DNA of 64,000 bases, taken from assembly GCF_002176815.1 (NCBI RefSeq), contig NZ_CP021648.1:1558001-1622000 (forward strand). Reading direction: 5' to 3'. The stretch is from Acidovorax sp. T1. Its GTDB lineage: Bacteria; Pseudomonadota; Gammaproteobacteria; Burkholderiales; Burkholderiaceae_C. Every line of letters starts with the position of its first letter. Position 1 is the stretch's first letter. The position numbers and the translations under genes were made by a program. Below, one piece after another: positions 4,771 through 63,203 of the stretch. The notes beneath the pieces were generated by a model, which had not been told where the DNA came from, did no database searches, and worked only from the letters and a program-made list of their open reading frames with translations.

Positions 4771-7740
4771 ATGACACCTACCGATAACCCCCTCGCCCTC
4801 TCCGCCGCACTCACGGCCAAAACCAACCAGTTGGCCCTGGGGCTTGAATCCGGCGCCGCCGATCTGCTGGACCTCGTCACCCCCACCACGGCCGAGCTGC
4901 TGCTGTGGTGGTTCGGCCAGGACATGGTGGACGCGCGCGGCGGGCTGAACTTTCATGCCGGGCAAAAGCAGGCCATCCTGAACGCCATCGTGGCGCACGA
5001 GGTGCTGGGCGCCGGGAAGGCAAGCTGGACGCTGAAAGACCTGTACCAGCAGGTGGCGCCCGATGCGCTGCTGGCGGGCACCCGGCTGGCCGAGGTGTCG
5101 GCGGGCAAACACGCGCACCCCAAATACTGCTTCAAGATGGCCACGGGCACGGGCAAGACCTGGGTGTTGCAGGCGCTCTTGATCTGGCAGTTGCTCAACA
5201 AGACGGCGGCGCTGGCCGAGGGCATGGACGACGCACGCTTTACCCGCCAGTTCATGGTGGTGGCGCCGGGGCTAATTGTTTACGAGCGGCTGCTGGATGC
5301 GTTTTGCTGAAAATTGATAGCAGGCAGCGCAAGCGGGGCAAGGGATTTCGCCAGTTCTGACATGGCGCAGTTTGCCGACCTGTTCATCCCCGAGGCGCAC
5401 CGCGATGCGGTGTTTGCCTTTGTGCGCGGCAACGTCTGTGGCAAGGGCGAGATTGGCCTGAAGGCTACGGGCAACGGCATGATCGCCATTACCAACTGGC
5501 ACCTTTTGGTAGATGGGCTGGCTGAAGGCGAGGTGGTTGACGACGTGGAAACAGTGGAGACCCCAGGCGCGCCGCTGGAACCGCAGCAGGTGGTGGCCGC
5601 CGTGCTGCCGCTCATGCCGGGCCGCGCCACGGGCAACAGCCTGGACGTGCTGGACCGCCGCTATGCGCGCGGCAATGTGCTGGAGTTTCTGGCTGCGCTG
5701 CCCGAGCTGATGGTGTTCAACGACGAGGCACACCACATCCATGAGTTCAAGCGCGAAGGCGAGGTGACCGAGGTGGAGTGGCAAAAGAGCCTGACCCGCA
5801 TTGCCGAAACCAAGGGCCGACGCTTTGTGCAGGTGGACTTTTCTGCCACGCCGTACAACGACGTGGGCAGTGGCAAGAACAAGAAGAAGCTGTACTTTGC
5901 GCACATCGTCACCGACTTTGACCTGAAGTCGGCCATGCGCGCGGGGCTGGTCAAGTCGTTGGTGCTGGACAGGCGCAAGGAAATTGGCGCGCTGCCGCTG
6001 GAGTTCAAGGCCGAGCGCGACGAGGCGGGCAACCCCATCTTGAGCGAGGGCCAGCGCGTGATGCTGCGCGCCGGGCTGCAAAAGCTGCGCAAGCTCGAAG
6101 CCGACTTCGCCCGTATCGACCCCGCCCGCCACCCCAAGATGCTGGTGGTGTGCGAGGACACGACGGTGTCGCCCCTGGTGGCGCAGTTTCTGCAAGAGCA
6201 GGAAGGCTTGCAGGCGGATGAGGTGATGACCATCGACTCGGGCAAAAAAGCCGAGCTGGGCGAGAAAGACTGGGCGCCCGTGCGCGAGCGCCTGTTCAGC
6301 GTGGACCGGCACGCCACGCCGCGCGTCATTGTCAGCGTGTTGATGCTGCGCGAGGGCTTTGACGTGAACAACATTTGCGTCATCGTGCCGCTGCGCAGCT
6401 CGCAAGCGCAAATTTTGCTGGAGCAGACCATTGGCCGGGGCCTGCGCCTGATGTGGCGCGATGCCGAATACGCCGACCTGAAGCGCGAAAACCGCGAGCG
6501 CATCAACGCCGGGCAAGAGCCTGCCAACCTGATCGACGTGCTGAGCATCGTCGAGCACCCGGCGTTTCAGTCGTTTTACGACGACTTGCTGAAAGAAGGC
6601 CTGGCGGGCACCACGGGCGAGGGCATGGACGACACCTCCAGCACGGGCGACGTGATGGCCGCCGAGCTGCGCGAGGGCTTTGAGGCATTTGACTTTGGCA
6701 TCCCGTTCATCCTGCGCGAGGCCGATGAGCTGCGGGACCACGCCGCCATCGATGTGCTGGCGCTGCCCGCCTTCACCGCCCTGTCGGCGCACGAATTGCG
6801 CGGCCTGCTGGGCAAGGGCGACACCTTCATCTCGCAAGACCTGCAAAGCGCCACGTTGTTTGGCGACTACCGCGTGGATGGCGCAGTGATGAACGTGGGC
6901 GGCTACAACGACTATCTGGCGCGCCTGACGCGGCGCATCAGCCAGGCGCTGAGCGAGCCGCTGCCCAAAGGTAACAAAATTGCCACGCACCTGGCCAAAC
7001 CCTATTTGCAAGTCAACACCGCCGATTTGACCGGCTGGCTGGACGACTACATCTGGACGCGGCTGTTTGGCGCCGCCTTCAACCCGCTTGAAGATGAAAA
7101 CTGGCGCCTGTTGCTGCTGCAGCCGGTGGTGGAGCACATCACCAAGGTGTTTGCCGTGGCGCTGCTCGAATCCGAAGAGCAGCACACCAGCGGCCACACC
7201 GAGGTGCATGCGCGCTGGATCAGCGAGGTGCCGCGCCTGATGCTGCGCGAGGCCCATTCGGTAGAAGTCAGCAAGTGCATCTACACCCGCCTGGGCTGGC
7301 CCGCGCGCAATGGCGGGCTGGAGCGCAGTTTCATCCACTGGGCGCAGGCCGATAGCCAGGTGCTGGCGTTTTGCAAGATCAGCGAAAACCGCCACCACTT
7401 TGCCCGCCTGCGTTATGTGAAGGACGACGGCTTGCCCGCGTTTTACAGCCCCGATTTTCTGGTGCGCACGGCCAGCGGCATTTTTCTGGTGGAAACCAAG
7501 GCGCAGCAGCAGGCCATTCACCCCAATGTGCAGCGCAAGTTGAAAGCCGCCGTGGCTTGGGTAGCGCGCATCAACGCCCTGGCGCCAGAACACCGGCAAG
7601 GCCTGCCCTGGCATTACGTGCTGCTGGCCGAGAACGTGGTGCACGAGTGGCAGGCCAAGGGCGCGCACCTGGCCGAGCTGCTGGATTACGCCCGGCTGCG
7701 GCCGCTGGCCAGTGCAGAGCTGCAGGGGTGGTTGCTGTAG
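4771..7740 (+). pseudogene. res: Type III restriction endonuclease subunit (Res), interrupted by in-frame TGA
   Basis: ATP-dependent translocase and nuclease partner of Mod. The first part (4771-5310) carries Walker A (ATGTGKT, residues about 126-132). An in-frame TGA at 5308-5310 follows DAFC, and the same frame then continues without shift to 7740 with helicase motif II DEAHH (about 318), motif III SATPY, motif VI QTIGRGLR, and a C-terminal region with SPDFLV and VETKAQQQ, which fits a PD-(D/E)XK nuclease core. Total length of about 989 codons is normal for Res. A TTG lies 3 bp after the stop, so restart is conceivable, but Walker A and motif II would then be on separate chains. Probably inactive, unless the TGA is a sequencing error. 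Confidence 0.85.
5306..5345 (+). repeat. probable decayed dispersed repeat carrying the res stop codon
   Basis: The start TGAAAATTGATAGC matches one end of the dispersed element (compare TTTTGATAGCTGCTGGCGCT at 38769) and the rest keeps a weak resemblance. It supplies the TGA at 5308-5310. Confidence 0.45.
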
Positions 7741-38829: not shown

Positions 38830-40443
38830 ATGCAACACCAGAAAATCCTCATCCTCGACTTCGGCTCGCAAGTCACCCAGCTCATCGCCCGCCGCGTGCG
38901 TGAAGCCAATGTGTACTGCGAAGTGCACCCCTGCGACGTGACCGACGAATGGGTGCGTGACTACGCCAAGGATGGCTCGCTCAAGGGCATCATCCTGTCG
39001 GGCAGCCACGCCAGCGTGACCGAAGACACCACCGACCGGGCGCCGCAGGCCGTGTTCGAGCTGGGCCTGCCGGTGCTGGGTATCTGCTACGGCATGCAGA
39101 CCATGGCGCAGCAGCTGGGCGGCAAGGTGGAAACCGGCCACAAGCGCGAGTTCGGCTTTGCGGCCGTGCGCGCCCGTGGCCACACCGCGCTGCTCAAGGA
39201 CATTGCCGACTTCACCACGCCTGAAGGCCACGGCATGCTCAACGTGTGGATGAGCCACGGCGACAAGGTCACTGAGTTGCCCCCGGGCTTCAAGCTCATG
39301 GCCAGCACCGATAGCTGCCCCATCGCCGGCATGGCCGACGAGGCGCGCCGCTTCTATGCCGTGCAGTTCCACCCTGAAGTCACGCACACCGTGCAGGGCA
39401 GGGCGCTGCTCGATCGCTTCGTGCTCGGGATCTGCGCTACCCGCCCCGACTGGGTCATGCGCGACCACATCGCCGAAGCCGTGGAGCAGATCCGCCAGCA
39501 GGTGGGCGATGAAGAAGTGATTCTGGGCCTCTCGGGCGGTGTGGATTCGTCCGTGGCCGCGGCGCTGATCCACCGCGCCATCGGCGACCAGCTCACCTGC
39601 GTGTTCGTGGACCACGGCCTGCTGCGCCTGAACGAAGGCGACATGGTCATGGACATGTTCGTCGGCAAGCTGCACGCCAAGGTGATCCGGGTGGATGCCA
39701 GCGATCTCTTCCTGGGCAAGCTGGCGGGTGTGAGCGAGCCTGAGCAAAAGCGCAAGATCATCGGGGGCCTGTTTGTCGATGTGTTCAAGGCCGAGGCCGC
39801 CAAGCTCAAGGGCGACGGAGCGAAGGGTGCCAAGTGGCTGGCCCAGGGCACCATCTACCCCGACGTCATTGAATCCGGCGGCGCCAAGAGCAAAAAGGCC
39901 GTCACCATCAAGAGCCACCACAACGTGGGCGGATTGCCCGAGCAGCTGGGTCTGAAGCTGCTGGAACCCCTGCGCGACCTGTTCAAGGACGAAGTGCGTG
40001 AACTCGGCGTGGCCCTGGGCCTGCCGCCCGAAATGGTCTACCGCCACCCCTTCCCCGGCCCCGGCCTGGGTGTGCGCATCCTGGGTGAAGTGAAGAAGGA
40101 ATACGCCGACTTGCTGCGCCGCGCCGACGCGATCTTCATCGAAGAGCTGCGCAACTTCACCGACGGCGCCACCGGCAAGACCTGGTACGACCTCACCAGC
40201 CAGGCTTTCACCGTCTTTCTGCCCGTCAAGAGCGTAGGCGTGATGGGCGATGGCCGCACCTACGACTACGTGGTCGCCCTGCGTGCCGTGCAGACCAGCG
40301 ATTTCATGACAGCTGACTGGGCGGAGCTGCCCTACGCATTGCTCAAGAAAGTGTCGGGCCGCATCATCAACGAAGTGCGCGGCATCAACCGCGTGACGTA
40401 TGACGTGAGCAGCAAGCCGCCAGCGACGATTGAGTGGGAATGA
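38830..40443 (+). CDS. guaA: GMP synthase (glutamine-hydrolysing)
   Basis: Converts XMP to GMP, 537 residues. The N-terminal glutamine amidotransferase has [15 protein letters not shown] (catalytic Cys about 87) and FHPEVTHT; the ATP pyrophosphatase domain has the P-loop LSGGVDSSV (about 234-242), and the dimerisation domain ends [18 protein letters not shown]. The C-terminus is normal in length, so the integrated element has preserved the gene, as expected for insertion at a 3'-end attachment site. Confidence 0.97.
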
Positions 40444-40541: not shown

Positions 40542-40560
40542 GGGGGATGCACTCCAGTCT

Positions 40561-40715
40561 GACGGTAAATCCGACGGTAAAAAATAGAGACCTGCGCCTC
40601 GCAGATTTTTTACCGTCAGGCCCGAACGGTCATTGACGGTAAAAATTCAGTAGAAAAACGCAATAAAAACAACGACTTAAGTCGTTTGTAGCGCTCGTTT
40701 TCTCTTGACGGTAAA
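40561..40715. repeat. five GACGGTAAA boxes upstream of the integrase
   Basis: Direct copies at 40561-40569, 40573-40581, 40635-40643 and 40707-40715 and an inverted copy at 40609-40617. Their spacing between attL and int suggests integrase arm-type or excisionase sites; the last copy may also lie in the int promoter. Confidence 0.75.
40592..40611 (+). terminator. terminator-like hairpin nested in the box cluster
   Basis: CTGCG and CGCAG with a 3-base loop, followed by A and six T. The surrounding 13-bp inverted boxes (40573-40617) extend the pairing. Confidence 0.6.
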
Positions 40716-40739
40716 ATTCGCACGAATGGAGGTGCGACG

Positions 40740-41999
40740 ATGCTGTCAGATGGGACGTTGAGAGGCCTCAAGCCAGAGGCCACGGCCTACAAGGTGGCCG
40801 ACCGGGACGGGATGTACGTGACGGTCTCTCCCAAGGGCACGATCACGTTTCGGCTGGACTACCGCCTCAATGGCCGGCGCGAGACGCTCACGGTGGGCCG
40901 CTACGGTGCCAAGGACGGCATCTCGCTGCTGATGGCGCGGGAGCGCTGCATGGAGGCGCGGCGTGCTATCGCCGAAGGTCAGTCGCCCAGCCAGGAAAAG
41001 CAGCGCGAGAAGCGTCGCATGGCCGAGGCCAAGACCTTCGAGCAGTTCACCAACCGCTGGCTGGAAGAGGCCAGGATGGCCGACAGCACCAAGTCGATGC
41101 GCAAGAGCATCATCGACCGGGACATCATGCCGGCGTTCCGCAGTCGGCTGCTGGCGGAGATCGGCCCCGAAGACTTGCGCAACCTGTGCGCAAAGGTCAA
41201 GGAGCGCGGCGCCCCGGCCACAGCTGTGCACGTGCGCGACATCGTCAAGCAAGTGTTCAGTTTCGCCGCACTGCATGGCGACAAGGCACCGAACCCCGCA
41301 GACGAAGTCGGCCCCTCTTCGATTGCGACGTTCGTGGCCAAGGATCGAGCGCTGTCGCCGTCCGAGATCCGAGTCATGCACCGCGTGCTCGACACCACGG
41401 CGACGCTGCCGACCATTCGCCTGGCGCTACGCCTGGTTCTGCTCACGCTCGTGCGCAAGAGCGAGCTCATCGAGGCCACCTGGAACGAGATTGACTTCGC
41501 GAACGCAGTCTGGACGATCCCGAAGAGCCGCATGAAGGCGGGCAAGCCCCACAACGTCTACCTGTCGCAGCAGGCGCTGGACATCATGGTGGCACTTCGC
41601 ACCTGTGCTGGTGGCTCGCGGTTCCTGCTGCCCTCGCGCTATGACGCCGATCGCTGCATGTCAAAGGCGACCCTCAACCGTGTGACCCAGGTCGTCGTGG
41701 CGAAGGCCAAAGAGTCGCGCCTGCCTCTGGAGTCGTTCACCGTGCATGACCTGCGGCGCACGGGCTCCACCATCCTCAACGAACTGGGCTTCAACAGCGA
41801 CTGGATCGAGAAGTGCCTGGCCCACGAGGACGGTCGGTCGTCGCGCGGTGTCTACAACAAGGCCGAGTACGGTGAGCAGCGGCGCCACCTGTTGCAGGAG
41901 TGGGCCGACATGATCGACGCGTGGGTGGCGGGGGAGGCGCACACGCCGACCTTGTTGCCGCCGACGATGAAGGCGGTCACGACGTCGGCGCCGATATGA
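40740..41999 (+). CDS. int: tyrosine site-specific integrase (guaA-type)
   Basis: A 419-residue integrase of the P4/DUF4102 type: N-terminal domain with YKVADRDGMYVTVSPKGTITF, a core-binding SAM-like domain (about 100-190), and the catalytic domain with Arg in LTLVRKSELIEA, HDLRRTGSTIL, and CLAHEDGRSSRGVYNKAEY holding the His and Tyr. All catalytic residues are present, so it should be active. It reads away from guaA into the element and has GGAGGTGCG just before the ATG. Confidence 0.92.
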   Translation: MLSDGTLRGLKPEATAYKVADRDGMYVTVSPKGTITFRLDYRLNGRRETLTVGRYGAKDGISLLMARERCMEARRAIAEGQSPSQEKQREKRRMAEAKTFEQFTNRWLEEARMADSTKSMRKSIIDRDIMPAFRSRLLAEIGPEDLRNLCAKVKERGAPATAVHVRDIVKQVFSFAALHGDKAPNPADEVGPSSIATFVAKDRALSPSEIRVMHRVLDTTATLPTIRLALRLVLLTLVRKSELIEATWNEIDFANAVWTIPKSRMKAGKPHNVYLSQQALDIMVALRTCAGGSRFLLPSRYDADRCMSKATLNRVTQVVVAKAKESRLPLESFTVHDLRRTGSTILNELGFNSDWIEKCLAHEDGRSSRGVYNKAEYGEQRRHLLQEWADMIDAWVAGEAHTPTLLPPTMKAVTTSAPI

Positions 42000-42150: not shown

Positions 42151-42167
42151 GTTCGCCATGAGCGAAC
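42151..42167. promoter_or_regulatory. palindrome upstream of the retron promoter
   Basis: GTTCGC CATGA GCGAAC, perfect 6-bp arms, ending 7 bp before the -35 box. Candidate operator for the Xre-type HTH protein encoded at 42664. Confidence 0.45.
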
Positions 42168-42174
42168 AAAGTTC

Positions 42175-42203
42175 TTGCTTTCTTGACTGACATTTCCTAT
42201 AAT
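42175..42203 (+). promoter_or_regulatory. retron promoter
   Basis: TTGCTT (42175-42180), 17 bp, TATAAT (42198-42203). Transcription would begin near 42210, just upstream of the proposed msr. Confidence 0.65.
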
Positions 42204-42205
42204 TC

Positions 42206-42465
42206 GGGTGCTTGGGCTAAAGAGAGCACTCGTTAATCGTGGGGATGTGGGAACGCATCTCGCGGGGCCGAAAGGCTCTGATGTTCTCTGCGGTCACGCG
42301 GTCGCCGGTACGCGGTGGTCCGGGTGGTTGCAGCGAAGCCGGTCCCGGACGAGTACCGGGACCGGTTAGGGGCCCAGAGGTGCAAACAGCCGACGTTCTC
42401 TCACTTTCTTCAGAACTGACGAGAGGCTCTGCATGGTGCAGGGTCGTTTTGAAGAAGGAGGCATC
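42206..42465 (+). ncRNA. retron msr-msd RNA (proposed)
   Basis: Non-coding, richly paired region between the promoter and the first retron ORF. Outer arms a1 (AGAGCACTCGT, 42223-42233) and a2 (ACGAGAGGCTCT, 42419-42430) pair as 5+5 bp around a small bulge. Inside are an msr-like set of hairpins (GGGATG/CATCTC at 42242-42261; CGGGGCC-GAAA-GGCTCTG at 42263-42280) and a long msd-like hairpin with ten perfect pairs (CCGGTCCCGG/CCGGGACCGG, 42339-42365). TTGCA/TGCAA (42328, 42381) can extend it. A further hairpin CTCTGCA/TGCAGGG lies at 42427-42443. Position relative to the RT gene fits retrons; the branching guanosine is not assigned. Confidence 0.7.
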
Positions 42466-42467
42466 AA

Positions 42468-42857
42468 ATGCCTGAAATTCGTAAGCGTTCAAGCCGTCGG
42501 CCGGCATCGGAGAAGAAGAGTCTGCGGGGGTGGTTTTTCCGCCATCGCGTGGTGCTGAAGGGTGTCATCGGGGCTGGTAAGGCTCTGCTGTACATCTGGA
42601 GCATCTGGCACCGATTCCGAGATGACCTCTGGCCTTTTTATGTTTGGATCACGGGGCAAATAGATGCAACACGAGGCGCTTCGTTTGGTGCGTGTGTTTC
42701 ACGACATGAACCAGACGACTTTGGCAGATCGACTGCAAATTTCGAAGTCCTACCTCTCGGAAATCGAGAGCGGCAAGAAGCAGGTGACGCTGGAGTTGCT
42801 GCAAAAGTACGCGGATACGTTTGGCATGCCCCTATCGTCGTTGCTCTTCTTTGCTGA
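42468..42857 (+). CDS. small basic membrane-type protein of the retron locus
   Basis: A 129-codon ORF with the best ribosome binding site of the locus (AAGAAGGAGG, 6 bp before ATG). Residues 1-27 are very basic (RKRSSRRPASEKK), followed by a hydrophobic stretch VVLKGVIGAGKALLYIWSIW (about 29-48) and a second aromatic one DDLWPFYVWITGQI (about 53-66). Residues 67-129 overlap the HTH gene in another frame and look less natural. Either the genes overlap by 194 bp or a frameshift hides an earlier stop. Possibly the membrane-acting effector or an accessory of the retron; inference only. Confidence 0.55.
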   Translation: MPEIRKRSSRRPASEKKSLRGWFFRHRVVLKGVIGAGKALLYIWSIWHRFRDDLWPFYVWITGQIDATRGASFGACVSRHEPDDFGRSTANFEVLPLGNRERQEAGDAGVAAKVRGYVWHAPIVVALLC

Positions 42858-42954
42858 GCAGGTGGAAGGCGGTGCCCGCGAGAAAGTTCGCACGGCGATT
42901 GCCGGCAAGGTCGTCAAGATGTTGGACTGGATGGCGGCCAAAGACGCCGTCTGA
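42664..42954 (+). CDS. Xre-type helix-turn-helix protein of the retron locus
   Basis: A 96-residue protein with a textbook HTH_3 domain (about 8-62): LVRVFHDMNQTTLADRLQIS, KSYLSEIESGKKQVTLELLQ, then a helical tail ending KMLDWMAAKDAV. A small HTH protein encoded directly before the RT is a feature of one described retron class (called type VI in the published classification, quoted from memory). It may be regulator, antitoxin or effector. An in-frame TAG directly abuts its ATG. Confidence 0.8.
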   Translation: MQHEALRLVRVFHDMNQTTLADRLQISKSYLSEIESGKKQVTLELLQKYADTFGMPLSSLLFFAEQVEGGAREKVRTAIAGKVVKMLDWMAAKDAV

Positions 42955-42963
42955 GGAACACGT

Positions 42964-43896
42964 TTGGCCACTCGCAAGACCTACGCGCTGGACCAGTGCC
43001 CCCTGTACAAGATCGCCAGCCGCAAGCGGTTGGCACAGGATGTTTTCAACGTCGACTTGCCGTTCCTGGAGCGCCTCGCAGCCAATGAAGGCAACTTCCG
43101 TGTCTTCACGATAAAGCAGGGTGACAAGGACCGCCAAGTCGAAGTTCCGAAGGTCGTTCTGGAGCGAATCCATCGTCGCCTCTTCAATCTGCTTGAGCGA
43201 ATCGAGAAGCCTGACTACCTCCACTCCGGCGTTCGAGGACGTTCGTACATTTCAAATGCGAAGGTCCATGTTGGCGCTGTTCCGCTTGTAAAGCTGGACC
43301 TGAAGAAGTTCTACCCGTCAGTTGATGGCGCGCGGGTTTCAAGGTTCTTCACTGGCACTATGCGTTGTAGCCCTGATGTAGCTGCACTGCTGACGCGTCT
43401 ATGCACATTCGAGAACCATGTCCCCACGGGAAGTTGCGTCAGCCAGTTGCTGGCGTTCTTCGCGGCGAAGCCCCTTTTCGATGAACTGCACGCCCTCGCC
43501 GAAAGCGCAGGCCTACGTGACAGTTGCTACGTTGATGACCTCACGTGGTCCGGACACGGGGCGACGCCAGCCTTCCTTTGGGCAGCAAAGCAGGTGGTGC
43601 ACCGCCATGGATTTGCACACCACAAAGATCGCTGCTTCGCGGCTGGAGACCGAAAGCTCGTGACTGGGGTGATGTTGGAAGGCAACCGCATCGCCGTCTT
43701 GCCCAGCAAGGAGTTCGATCTCTGGAAGAACATTCAGGCGCTGGGGGGCTTTCAACCCCAAGAACGGATCGTGGCCGTGAACAGCCTGATCGGTTCGGCG
43801 GTAGCAGCCGGACAGATTGAATCTCGCTTCCTACGACGACTGTTGCGCCTTCGTCGAGTGCGGGCCGCAGCTATCGCCGAGGCTGCCCTGACCTAA
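42964..43896 (+). CDS. retron reverse transcriptase
   Basis: RNA-directed DNA polymerase of 310 residues that copies the msd part of its own RNA into branched RNA-DNA. Catalytic motifs: LDLKKFYPSV (first Asp, about 112), PTGSCVSQLLAFFA, and YVDD (189-192). The retron-specific motifs NAKVH (98-102, NAxxH) and VTG (233-235) are both present, which separates it from group II intron and DGR enzymes. The start is TTG with GAGGAA 6 bp upstream, and it lies 9 bp after the HTH gene. Length is typical of compact retron RTs. Confidence 0.93.
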   Translation: MATRKTYALDQCPLYKIASRKRLAQDVFNVDLPFLERLAANEGNFRVFTIKQGDKDRQVEVPKVVLERIHRRLFNLLERIEKPDYLHSGVRGRSYISNAKVHVGAVPLVKLDLKKFYPSVDGARVSRFFTGTMRCSPDVAALLTRLCTFENHVPTGSCVSQLLAFFAAKPLFDELHALAESAGLRDSCYVDDLTWSGHGATPAFLWAAKQVVHRHGFAHHKDRCFAAGDRKLVTGVMLEGNRIAVLPSKEFDLWKNIQALGGFQPQERIVAVNSLIGSAVAAGQIESRFLRRLLRLRRVRAAAIAEAALT

Positions 43897-54013: not shown

Positions 54014-54062
54014 CGACGTAACGACGTCGGTTGATGTTTTAAGTAGGACTGGGTGCTATACT
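54014..54062 (+). promoter_or_regulatory. toxin-antitoxin promoter region with palindrome
   Basis: CGACGT AACG ACGTCG (54014-54029) is a candidate antitoxin operator. TATACT (54057-54062) is a good -10 box only 5 bp before the ATG at 54068; a matching -35 is not clear. Confidence 0.45.
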
Positions 54063-54067
54063 TCGTC

Positions 54068-54439
54068 ATGCCAAGAAAGTCTTCCGCGAGAGCATTCAAG
54101 ACTGCCTGGTTCGGCAAGGCTGCCAAGAAGGCGCGGATTGGTGATCCGACGTTGATGGCTGCGATTTTGGAGGTCATGCGGGGTCAGGCGGATGATTTGG
54201 GCGGTGGCGTATTCAAGAAGCGGCTCAACGAGAACATGCACCGCTCCATCGTCTTGGCAAAGGGTGGCCAGCACTGGGTCTTCGCGTATCTCTTTGCCAA
54301 GAAAGATCGGGCCAATATCGATCCCGACGAGCTCGCTGCTTTCAGGAAGCTCGCGCAGGCCTACGGTCGCATGACGGATGCCGAGTTGGCATCCGCACTG
54401 AGTCAAGGTGACTTACAGGAGCTTTTCCATGACGCGTAA
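54068..54439 (+). CDS. RelE/HigB-like toxin
   Basis: A 123-residue RelE/ParE-superfamily protein (family by pattern: basic N-terminus RKSSARAFKTAWFGKAAKKA, then LGGGVFKKRLNENMHRSIVLAKGGQHWVFAYLFAKKD, spread over the beta core). Such toxins cleave mRNA in the ribosome. The gene comes before the antitoxin and overlaps it by 11 bp, the HigBA order. A -10 box 5 bp before the ATG suggests a leaderless mRNA. Confidence 0.75.
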   Translation: MPRKSSARAFKTAWFGKAAKKARIGDPTLMAAILEVMRGQADDLGGGVFKKRLNENMHRSIVLAKGGQHWVFAYLFAKKDRANIDPDELAAFRKLAQAYGRMTDAELASALSQGDLQELFHDA

Positions 54440-54752
54440 AGCCAAGTTCAAGAGTGACGCCTTCGAGGCTATCTACAGCGCTGCGCAGGGGCTGCACCGG
54501 GCCGGCACCATCGACAAGGCGACCATGCGTGATTTCGACGAGTCCTGCCTCGCGTCGCCGGTGGAGATCGCACCTGAGGCGATCAAGCGAATTCGGGAGG
54601 GCGCACACGTCAGCCAGCCGGTGTTTGCGCGCTTTCTGAACACCAGCGAATCCACGGTGCAGAAATGGGAGGCCGGAACCAAACGGCCGAGCGGCATGGC
54701 ACTCAAGCTGCTGGCCGTCGTCGAAAAGCACGGTCTCAAAGTACTGGCCTGA
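54429..54752 (+). CDS. HigA-like HTH antitoxin
   Basis: A 107-residue protein. The C-terminal part has an HTH domain: EAIKRIREGAHVSQPVFARF then LNTSESTVQKWEAGTKRPSG, the usual HigA pattern; the N-terminal part (SDAFEAIYSAAQGLHRAG) would bind the toxin. It overlaps the toxin gene by 11 bp and probably represses the pair. Confidence 0.8.
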   Translation: MTRKAKFKSDAFEAIYSAAQGLHRAGTIDKATMRDFDESCLASPVEIAPEAIKRIREGAHVSQPVFARFLNTSESTVQKWEAGTKRPSGMALKLLAVVEKHGLKVLA

Positions 54753-55582: not shown

Positions 55583-56449
55583 CTACCGGCCGAGATACAC
55601 CGCCGTGATCTGCTCCCTCTCATGCCCCAGCTCTGCGCTGATCGTGAGCCGAGCCTCCCGGTCCAGTTCGCGCTGTTCAGCTGTCAGATCCTTGGACCTC
55701 GGGCCACCGGCTGCCGGTGCCGTCCATCCCGTGAGTTCCCGGTAGCGGACCTGCGCGTACTGGTGTCGATGCCCGTGGATGCGGTGCACGCCTGCCGTTG
55801 CGCACTGGTGTTCGAAGCGCCGCAGTTGCTCGACGTAGCTTCGGTCTGCAGGAATGAGGCTGCCCCTGCCTGCCAGTGCCTTGGCTTCATCGAGCACCAG
55901 GCGCTGCTCGTCGTTGCGGATCGGGATCTCGCGGGCGCGGCCGCCCTTGGTCCAGGTGTCCTTCAGCGCAAGCTTGTTGCCCCGGTCTGCCCACTCTGGC
56001 CGGATCTTGATCGACTCTCCTCGCCGCAGGCCGAATGCGGCCTGCAGCCGCAGGGACATCGCGGTGTAGGGGTCGGTAATGCGGCCGAGCTCGGTGCCGG
56101 ACAGCTCGCGCGCCTTGCTGACGTTGGTGACGTACTGCCGGTTGCCGATGCCATAGTGGTCGTTGTCGCGCGCGATGACGTTTTGTTTGCCGACCTTCTC
56201 GGCCCACCAGCGCAGTTCGGCCATCCGGTTCTTGATGGTGCCGACCGCCAGGCCCTCAGCCTGCCATCGCTCGACCAGCCCCTCGACGTGCTTGGGCTTG
56301 AGGCTTGCTGCAGCCATGTGCCGGTAGCCGAGTTCTTGAAGCTGGCCCGCCACCAGGTCGAGCACGCGCTCGCGATCGCGTTGGGTCGCATAGCTGCCGT
56401 CGCGGTTGCGCCGGCACAGCTGCTTCAGCTCATAGTTCAGATCCCGCAT
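55583..56449 (-). CDS. integrase-domain protein (tyrosine recombinase family)
   Basis: A 288-residue protein with an N-terminal SAM-like domain (about 1-110) and a catalytic domain: Arg in GLRRGESIKIRPEW, HGHRHQYAQVRY, and LGHEREQITAVYLGR holding His and Tyr. This matches a set of ICE-encoded integrase-like proteins that are not the main integrase. The catalytic set appears complete. It is convergent with the DUF429 gene and read opposite to the maintenance module. Confidence 0.75.
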   Translation of the reverse strand: MRDLNYELKQLCRRNRDGSYATQRDRERVLDLVAGQLQELGYRHMAAASLKPKHVEGLVERWQAEGLAVGTIKNRMAELRWWAEKVGKQNVIARDNDHYGIGNRQYVTNVSKARELSGTELGRITDPYTAMSLRLQAAFGLRRGESIKIRPEWADRGNKLALKDTWTKGGRAREIPIRNDEQRLVLDEAKALAGRGSLIPADRSYVEQLRRFEHQCATAGVHRIHGHRHQYAQVRYRELTGWTAPAAGGPRSKDLTAEQRELDREARLTISAELGHEREQITAVYLGR

Positions 56450-63082: not shown

Positions 63083-63176
63083 CGACGCTGTACCCGCTTC
63101 GTTGCTCCAGTAGGAGCCGCATCCGCTTTCGCGTTTCCACCTTGCCCGGGAAGGCAGGTTGGCATGGGCGTCGACC
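63057..63176 (-). ncRNA. structured leader RNA upstream of the DUF3293 gene
   Basis: On the minus strand: an outer stem GGTCGACGC/GCGTCGGCC (63176-63168 with 63088-63080, nine pairs) encloses ACCTGCC/GGCAAGGT, CGC-GAAA-GCG and GCTCC-TACT-GGAGC hairpins. The outer 3' arm overlaps the terminator GGAGGGC, so the two structures are mutually exclusive. This has the design of a riboswitch or attenuator, but no known class is recognised. Confidence 0.55.
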
Positions 63177-63203
63177 CAATTCCAAATGTGCCCAAATTCT
63201 ACT

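Follow-up and report, generated by a model that had tools for sequence, protein, structure and literature searches.

The type VI class of retrons is said to have been set out by Mestre and others in 2020. That these systems have a small protein is already known, since small auxiliary proteins of type VI retrons are in print: the accessible part of PMC8541194 describes a type VI retron of Shewanella phage MuM16-1 and of P2-like phages, with a reverse transcriptase (RT), a helix-turn-helix (HTH) protein and a short upstream protein, and reports that the short proteins upstream of the regulators in two P2-like phages are 78% identical. These short proteins correspond to the small ORFs found here in two phage loci (L163, L173), near-copies of loci counted below, whose HTH proteins carry another recognition helix and lack the operator reported here. 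For MuM16-1, the same part of PMC8541194 points to gene p31, whereas the present comparison found a small ORF at 1480-1626 of locus L167 together with an exact operator. The available sections of PMC13405049, PMC12948488, PMC12548924 and PMC8934634 hold nothing on the mode of action of type VI retrons. A search conducted mostly outside subscription journals turned up no paper dealing with an effector or operator of type VI retrons, nor was a test of the small protein found in the literature searched. What HTH-class retrons do to the cell is not stated in the literature examined, which agrees with an earlier note on this DNA, made from the sequence alone, in which the mechanism of the HTH type was called unsettled.

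Toprim, TIR, protease and DUF3800 domains, which appear fused to retron RTs in PADLOC names, are effectors. Toxins can also be small membrane peptides, as are the type I toxins TisB and Hok; the type VI peptide is like these in size, charge pattern and a covered Shine-Dalgarno (SD) sequence, but no antisense RNA is proposed for it. The type IX and II-A retrons with solved complexes (Kva2 and Ec86) have an RT of like fold, and their effector-holding complex is the model borrowed here for type VI. Their effectors are an RNase or an NAD-acting enzyme, according to the accessible parts of PMC13405049 and PMC12948488, whereas a small peptide is proposed here.

In this work, a type VI retron of Acidovorax sp. 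T1 was compared with its relatives; the window is the whole 64-kb stretch of DNA that was analysed. The comparison suggests looking away from the HTH protein, and toward the small peptide, for the effector. New points, by comparison only, would be an operator for the HTH protein, the small gene as a constant third gene, its fusion to the RT and a hairpin over its SD; operator, hairpin, fusion and loci devoid of an HTH gene do not appear in the literature examined. If the peptide is the effector, the question of the HTH class reduces to one small gene. This gene has no family in the scanned libraries and is unannotated in the records of several relatives, so detection tools based on RT and HTH would miss a key part, and the operator could serve as a signature in the search for such systems, be they on plasmids, phages or integrative elements. 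Should one RNA both template msDNA and cover the ribosome site of the effector, this would be a new coupling of sensing to action.

The retron, its reverse transcriptase and the host element

On the plus strand between 42152 and 43896, a palindrome and a promoter precede a structured RNA, a small ORF and the genes for an Xre-type HTH protein and an RT, in this order; the stretch is classed as a complete type VI retron of the HTH class. The earlier note had called it a complete HTH-class retron with promoter, RNA, small ORF, Xre-type HTH protein and RT in order on one strand; this reading is supported, with every part located in that order, PADLOC assigning the RT to RT_VI and the HTH protein to HTH_VI, and the RNA covarying in 13 loci. 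The span given, 42206-43896, holds for the retron parts but starts about 55 nt too late and misses the putative operator at 42152-42166. Also missed, to judge by the comparison, were an HTH gene that seems dispensable, the conservation of the operator and a small ORF that appears to be the more constant partner. An RT of the type VI clade, an adjoining Xre HTH gene and a gene for a small auxiliary protein are all present. The gene order (RNA, small gene, HTH, RT) is as in the relatives, and the locus itself is an ordinary member of the type, nothing separating it from its clade. It holds the single RT of this kind in its own genome, and among Burkholderiales, the order of the host, such an RT was found at E 1e-30 in 2 of 399 genomes, its own included. 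One record (L002), perhaps from a very near genome, has an RT 100% identical to that of the window.

The RT (42964-43896, plus strand) has 310 aa and a TTG start, and scored 251 bits with PADLOC RT_VI, the next family, RT_III-A, reaching 123. NAxxH, YVDD and VTG are named as retron RT motifs, and all three had been claimed for this protein; they are there (N98-A99-x-x-H102, Y189-VDD192, V233-TG235) and are invariant in 23 aligned rows. Another class for the RT (a group II intron, DGR or different enzyme), or a dead retron, is scarcely credible: Pfam RVT_1 gives 24.5 bits, under its cut-off of 29.6, but RT_VI is the best family, and all 12 matches of a PDB sequence search with the RT family at E 1e-5 are retron RTs (Ec86 first, 1.7e-20). 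The reading frames are intact as well, the catalytic motifs invariant and the RT of L002 identical. Clustering with group II intron or DGR enzymes, named in the earlier note as a possible refutation, is therefore not what the family score and the PDB matches indicate. With Foldseek, run on the model of a relative's RT (L079) and not on the window's own, retrons took ranks 1-18 and the first group II intron enzyme rank 19; together with the PDB matches, these ranks rule out a non-retron RT.

The element carrying the retron is apparently inserted at the 3' end of guaA (38830-40443, plus strand; GMP synthase model 784.8 bits, cut-off 400). Its tyrosine integrase is encoded at 40740-41999 on the same strand (Pfam Phage_integrase 75.8 bits, cut-off 27.1), and guaB also lies upstream of the retron. 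Downstream are an AlpA-like gene and a PFGI-1-type ParB gene (ICE_PFGI_1_parB 179.6 bits, cut-off 143.75), a feature of PFGI-1/SPI-7-like ICEs that is thus present with an integrase beside guaA. The guaA integrative element proposed earlier is borne out by guaA, the integrase and ParB, but a second attachment repeat was not found with the patterns tried: in its own genome, the end of guaA has no second copy as an exact 12-mer or as a 16-mer with one mismatch. Four 12-mers that are nearly the same (TTGACGGTAAAA and its variants) lie in the gap between guaA and the integrase (40559-40716) and may be sites for a recombinase or a regulator. At 54053-54752 a RelE-family toxin (113 bits, cut-off 27) has an overlapping HTH partner at its end, the two being a likely toxin-antitoxin pair on the same element, and a second integrase-like gene (Phage_int_SAM_2 and Integrase_1) lies at 55583-56449 on the minus strand.

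The HTH protein and its putative operator

The Xre-type HTH protein, correctly recognised in the earlier note, is encoded at 42664-42954 on the plus strand (96 aa; HTH_VI 114 bits; model pLDDT 81.7) and is proposed to be an autoregulator. Over residues 1-70 its model resembles ClgR, DdrO, Stl, C proteins and SinR. This is the fold shared with the C (controller) proteins of restriction-modification systems, from which the retron HTH differs by an extra C-terminal helix (72-95), unexplained by known folds, and by a mere hint of a second half-site.

The palindrome TTCGC-N5-GCGAA at 42152-42166 is the putative operator of this protein and appears to be a cross-phylum one, occurring from Staphylococcus to Burkholderiales just upstream of the -35 box. 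Allowing 3-6 free bases, the pattern matches once in the 64-kb window (0.36 expected). Of the 11 HTH-bearing loci of the window's clade, the window included, 10 have it at this position and L008 has it with one mismatch; it is absent from both HTH-less Variovorax loci. Among 94 non-redundant loci, the 67 with the canonical recognition helix SxS[YFH][LIV]SE[IVL]E include 45 with an exact operator, and 56 when up to one mismatch is allowed. No exact operator was found in the 16 loci with another helix (4 have one mismatch) or in the 11 in which no HTH was detected by profile (none has one mismatch); 1551 control stretches, each of 750 nt, gave 0 exact matches and 39 with a single mismatch. Because the operator tracks the canonical recognition helix, the HTH protein looks like a regulator. 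Related palindromes seem to go with related helices: TTCAC..GTGAA in L034 and L171 (SxSHISEIE), and ATCGC..GCGAT or TATCGC..GCGATA in L064 and L070 (SQSYVSELE). The pattern is unspecific genome-wide, with 8 sites in its own genome vs 4 for the reversed pattern, and its weight therefore comes from its position. Across 44 loci, the best common -35 start lies 9 nt after the operator (16 loci with at least 4 of 6 bases) and the best common -10 start 32 nt after it (21 loci), with a spacer of 17 bp. GCGAA recurs at +9 to +28 in 9 of the 44 (controls 0, 0, 3 and 3), which is the hint of a second half-site. Since the operator is upstream of the -35 box and clear of it, activation is favoured; as the sign of regulation this is a guess.

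An HTH of this kind stands directly upstream of the RT in 91 of the 106 RT loci examined, and none was detected by profile in the other 15. Four of these (L019, L026, L036, L043) start near a contig end, L019 still having the small ORF, and two (L033, L037) have a divergent HTH by eye. In another eight (L013-L018, L022, L079) a small ORF immediately precedes the RT. All five of these that were scanned (L013, L015, L017, L022, L079) have RT_VI as their best family, as does L033. Upstream of the RT of L082, which is 36% identical to that of the window, the profile found no HTH and no clear peptide ORF could be made out. Mapped in three classes onto an RT tree with 90 rows, the HTH state needs 7 or more changes, counting L082 and the contig-end locus L043, which was scored as HTH-less. 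By this comparison the HTH is dispensable, and the small peptide gene is the more constant partner. As the sole necessary effector, the HTH protein is ruled out by the eight loci that keep RT and small ORF in its absence.

It is quite unlikely that the HTH protein is the effector or an msDNA-binding antitoxin, like the winged-helix proteins of other retrons, with an operator that is secondary and autoregulatory. Such a role would be in keeping with its presence in 91 of 106 loci, with the unexplained helix 72-95 and with the binding of msDNA by the type IX winged-helix protein, as given in the accessible part of PMC13405049. It sits poorly with the loss of the HTH from eight loci that retain RT and small ORF, with an operator that tracks the recognition helix and with a fold typical of small transcription regulators. 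This counter-evidence hits the HTH as a necessary effector and weighs less on the HTH as an antitoxin.

Retron RNA and the hairpin over the Shine-Dalgarno

A sigma-70-type promoter, as had been claimed, can be read from the sequence at 42175-42203 on the plus strand (-35 TTGCTT and -10 TATAAT, 17 bp apart). Conservation among relatives starts about 8 nt after its end; conservation and covariation place the retron RNA (msr-msd) at 42211-42432, plus strand, both ends being approximate. The proposed a1 arm (42223-42234) pairs with the proposed a2 arm (42418-42430), which is placed by pairing and covariation and whose 3' part also lies in the apex of the SD hairpin described below. After a1 come stem-loop 1 (42242-42261; 7 pairs, 5 with double changes), stem-loop 2 (42265-42278; 5 pairs, 2 with double changes), a long stem (42284-42337; 13 pairs, 4 with double changes) and a perfect 10-bp msd-like hairpin (42339-42365; 10 pairs, 7 with double changes). 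The 10-bp hairpin had been noticed from the sequence alone and is present; of the a1/a2 arms, whose stretch the earlier note left unstated, it can be said that arms able to serve as such exist.

The 46-pair structure was drawn from the window sequence and RNAalifold, an alternative 5' pairing of 42212-42218 with 42371-42377 (RNAalifold) being kept out of the pair count. The alignment held 13 loci: the window, L003-L012 and the two HTH-less Variovorax loci L013 and L014, with L002 omitted as the same as the window. In these, 89.8% of cells are paired, 20 pairs are changed on both sides with pairing kept, and 0 of 500 shuffles reach as many double-changed pairs; paired cells drop to 38-46% when the partner strand is slid by 1-3 columns. 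Covariation, the check proposed earlier for the RNA stems, is thus found in the structure as a whole. Taken by itself, the a1/a2 helix varies little (double changes in 2 of its 11 pairs, with 93.6% of cells paired) and adds little. At gathering scores, Rfam gave no match at the retron locus; its only match in the 64-kb window is a SAM-I/IV riboswitch at 63088-63194 on the minus strand (53.2 bits).

A further hairpin (42397-42461, plus strand) is predicted to cover the SD of the small gene (42457-42461). In its core, 42406-42456, positions 42406-42416 pair with 42446-42456 and 42425-42432 with 42438-42445; 11 of the 18 pairs show double changes, 99.1% of cells are paired, and shuffles gave 0 of 500. 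RNAalifold, with 11 sequences, adds five outer pairs that occupy the SD GGAGG, and in 11 folded loci of the window's clade the SD is predicted to be unpaired with a probability of 0.01-0.15. The mean of this probability is 0.206 for 61 small genes vs 0.412 for 57 HTH genes. RNAalifold pairs the SD region also in the P2-like, Pseudomonas (3-5 sequences) and Lachnospiraceae sets, the partner strand of the P2-like set shifting with the stretch supplied, and in 12 Firmicutes the predicted stem ends short of the SD. A covered SD is thus predicted firmly for the window's clade alone, and more weakly beyond it.

Because the apex of this hairpin shares bases with a2, the a1/a2 helix and the intact SD hairpin would be mutually exclusive. 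An RNA-switched peptide toxin can be envisaged, autoregulated by the HTH protein, in which a2 is shared between a1/a2 and the SD hairpin and the gain or loss of msDNA would switch translation of the effector; we hold this version to be unlikely.

The small gene and the proposed effector

The small ORF claimed between RNA and HTH gene is present at 42468-42857 on the plus strand (129 codons) and overlaps the HTH gene by 194 nt. Its conserved core, 42468-42644, covers about the first 59 codons; residues 1-59 of the peptide are conserved and the C-terminal remainder is variable. A protein search gave 10 database homologues with 75-92% local identity and 58-129 aa, the ORF matched no Pfam or PADLOC family, and its profile had three weak matches alone in the PDB (best E 0.61). 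With hhalign, the window's peptide group joins the Variovorax group (97%), and the P2-like, Marinobacter-like, two Pseudomonas and Delftia-like groups are partly linked (76-97%); the remaining pairs reached at most 28%, leaving the Firmicutes, Lachnospiraceae and alphaproteobacterial groups unlinked. The 61 peptides collected have a median length of 58 aa and a median net charge of +8, and 60 are net positive. On the KD hydropathy scale over 19 residues, just 22 of the 61 reach 1.6 (the window's peptide has 1.53), so that many look amphipathic rather than plainly transmembrane.

An ORF rule (short, basic N-terminus, hydrophobic stretch, before the HTH gene), formulated after the 106 loci had been inspected, held in 66 of 85 non-redundant loci and failed in 19, as compared with 505 of 8500 shuffles, 11 of 85 antisense strands and 5 of 78 stretches lying another 670 nt upstream; near-identical loci, and loci with too little upstream sequence, had been removed from the non-redundant sets. 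An SD motif precedes 60 of 61 small-gene starts, which were hand-picked from translations with SDs previously inspected for the window's clade alone, vs 45 of 457 and 42 of 1090 control ATGs. In six groups, pN/pS in frame is 0.37, 0.42, 0.26, 0.36, 0.35 and 0.50, and in four of the six the other frames give 0.83-1.37; the window's clade (four loci, L005 left out) has 0.37 in frame and 1.37 and 0.98 in the other frames. The small gene is, by these ratios, under purifying selection, and a chance ORF is ruled out by the controls of the rule, the in-frame pN/pS and the SD motifs. One locus, L101, has no candidate small ORF, and in L005 (about 5504-5710) the ORF is frameshifted beside an intact RT, through genuine loss or a mistake in the assembly.

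Peptide and RT form a single fusion protein, with the peptide at the N-terminus, in L079 (Alkalicoccobacillus gibsonii) and P0132 (Alkalihalobacillus sp.). In the L079 model a single long helix (28-75) comes ahead of the RT fold, and an internal ATG in L079 with an SD-like stretch means that free RT could be made too. A leader peptide or a spacer without protein function is a very improbable reading of the small ORF: its C-terminal part does vary in length and overlaps the HTH gene in the window's clade, but purifying selection acts in frame in six groups, and the peptide is found fused to the RT.

The constancy and character of the peptide, its damped translation and its fusion to the RT argue for an effector role, and its character alone for a membrane target. 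In our judgement, the type VI retron is best read, with a chance somewhat better than even, as a peptide effector under regulation, held by its RT complex. The Xre-type HTH protein would bind TTCGC-N5-GCGAA upstream of the -35 box and set the level of one transcript. This transcript would open with the retron RNA, to be copied in part by the RT into msDNA, and the 3' end of that RNA would fold over the SD of the small gene and keep translation low. The product, a basic peptide of about 60 residues, would be the effector, probably acting on the inner membrane, and the complex of RT, RNA and msDNA, perhaps with the HTH protein, would hold it inactive until infection disturbs the complex. Comparison brings out a small gene that is conserved, selected as coding sequence and set in its position, an operator linked to the HTH, a covarying RNA and a natural fusion of peptide and RT; the toxicity of the peptide, its membrane target, its sequestration, the trigger and the anti-phage role are what we infer.

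There is a modest but real possibility that the peptide is instead a subunit with a structural, sensing or membrane-anchoring role, or an antitoxin, the damage being done by the RT complex itself or by a host factor. Fusion to the RT N-terminus fits a permanent subunit equally well, small basic proteins can bind RNA, and the KD values are modest. The HTH-less loci, however, share no other candidate effector, and a covered SD is what would be expected for a protein that must be kept scarce.

Beyond these loci, a search for RT_VI covered 398 genomes of the phylum (Pseudomonadota), a set that is partly a hold-out; 27 genomes matched, and 27 loci were inspected (L180-L207 without the window's L184). 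Five have an RT of at least 150 bits by our own profile, a cut set after the scores were visible; the 22 that score no more than 118 were put aside as presumed other retron types. All five carry the canonical helix, with the operator exact in two, with one mismatch in two and missing in one; a basic small ORF was listed in four and seen by eye in the fifth (L183). In L185, L186 and L188 the RT is of another retron type, the HTH is a different one and the upstream ORF is small, helical and partly acidic, and small partners may be spread wider than type VI retrons. A Microvirga plasmid has a TIR-domain gene (L175, 2968-3927) immediately downstream of its type VI-like RT gene. At 3365-3517 of L164 and 3006-3101 of L165, close downstream of plasmid type VI retrons, type I toxins (Hok/Gef, Fst) are annotated. 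In phages, type VI retrons occupy varied sites (L166, L167, L171, L173): between tail genes, between head genes, or beside replication or portal genes.
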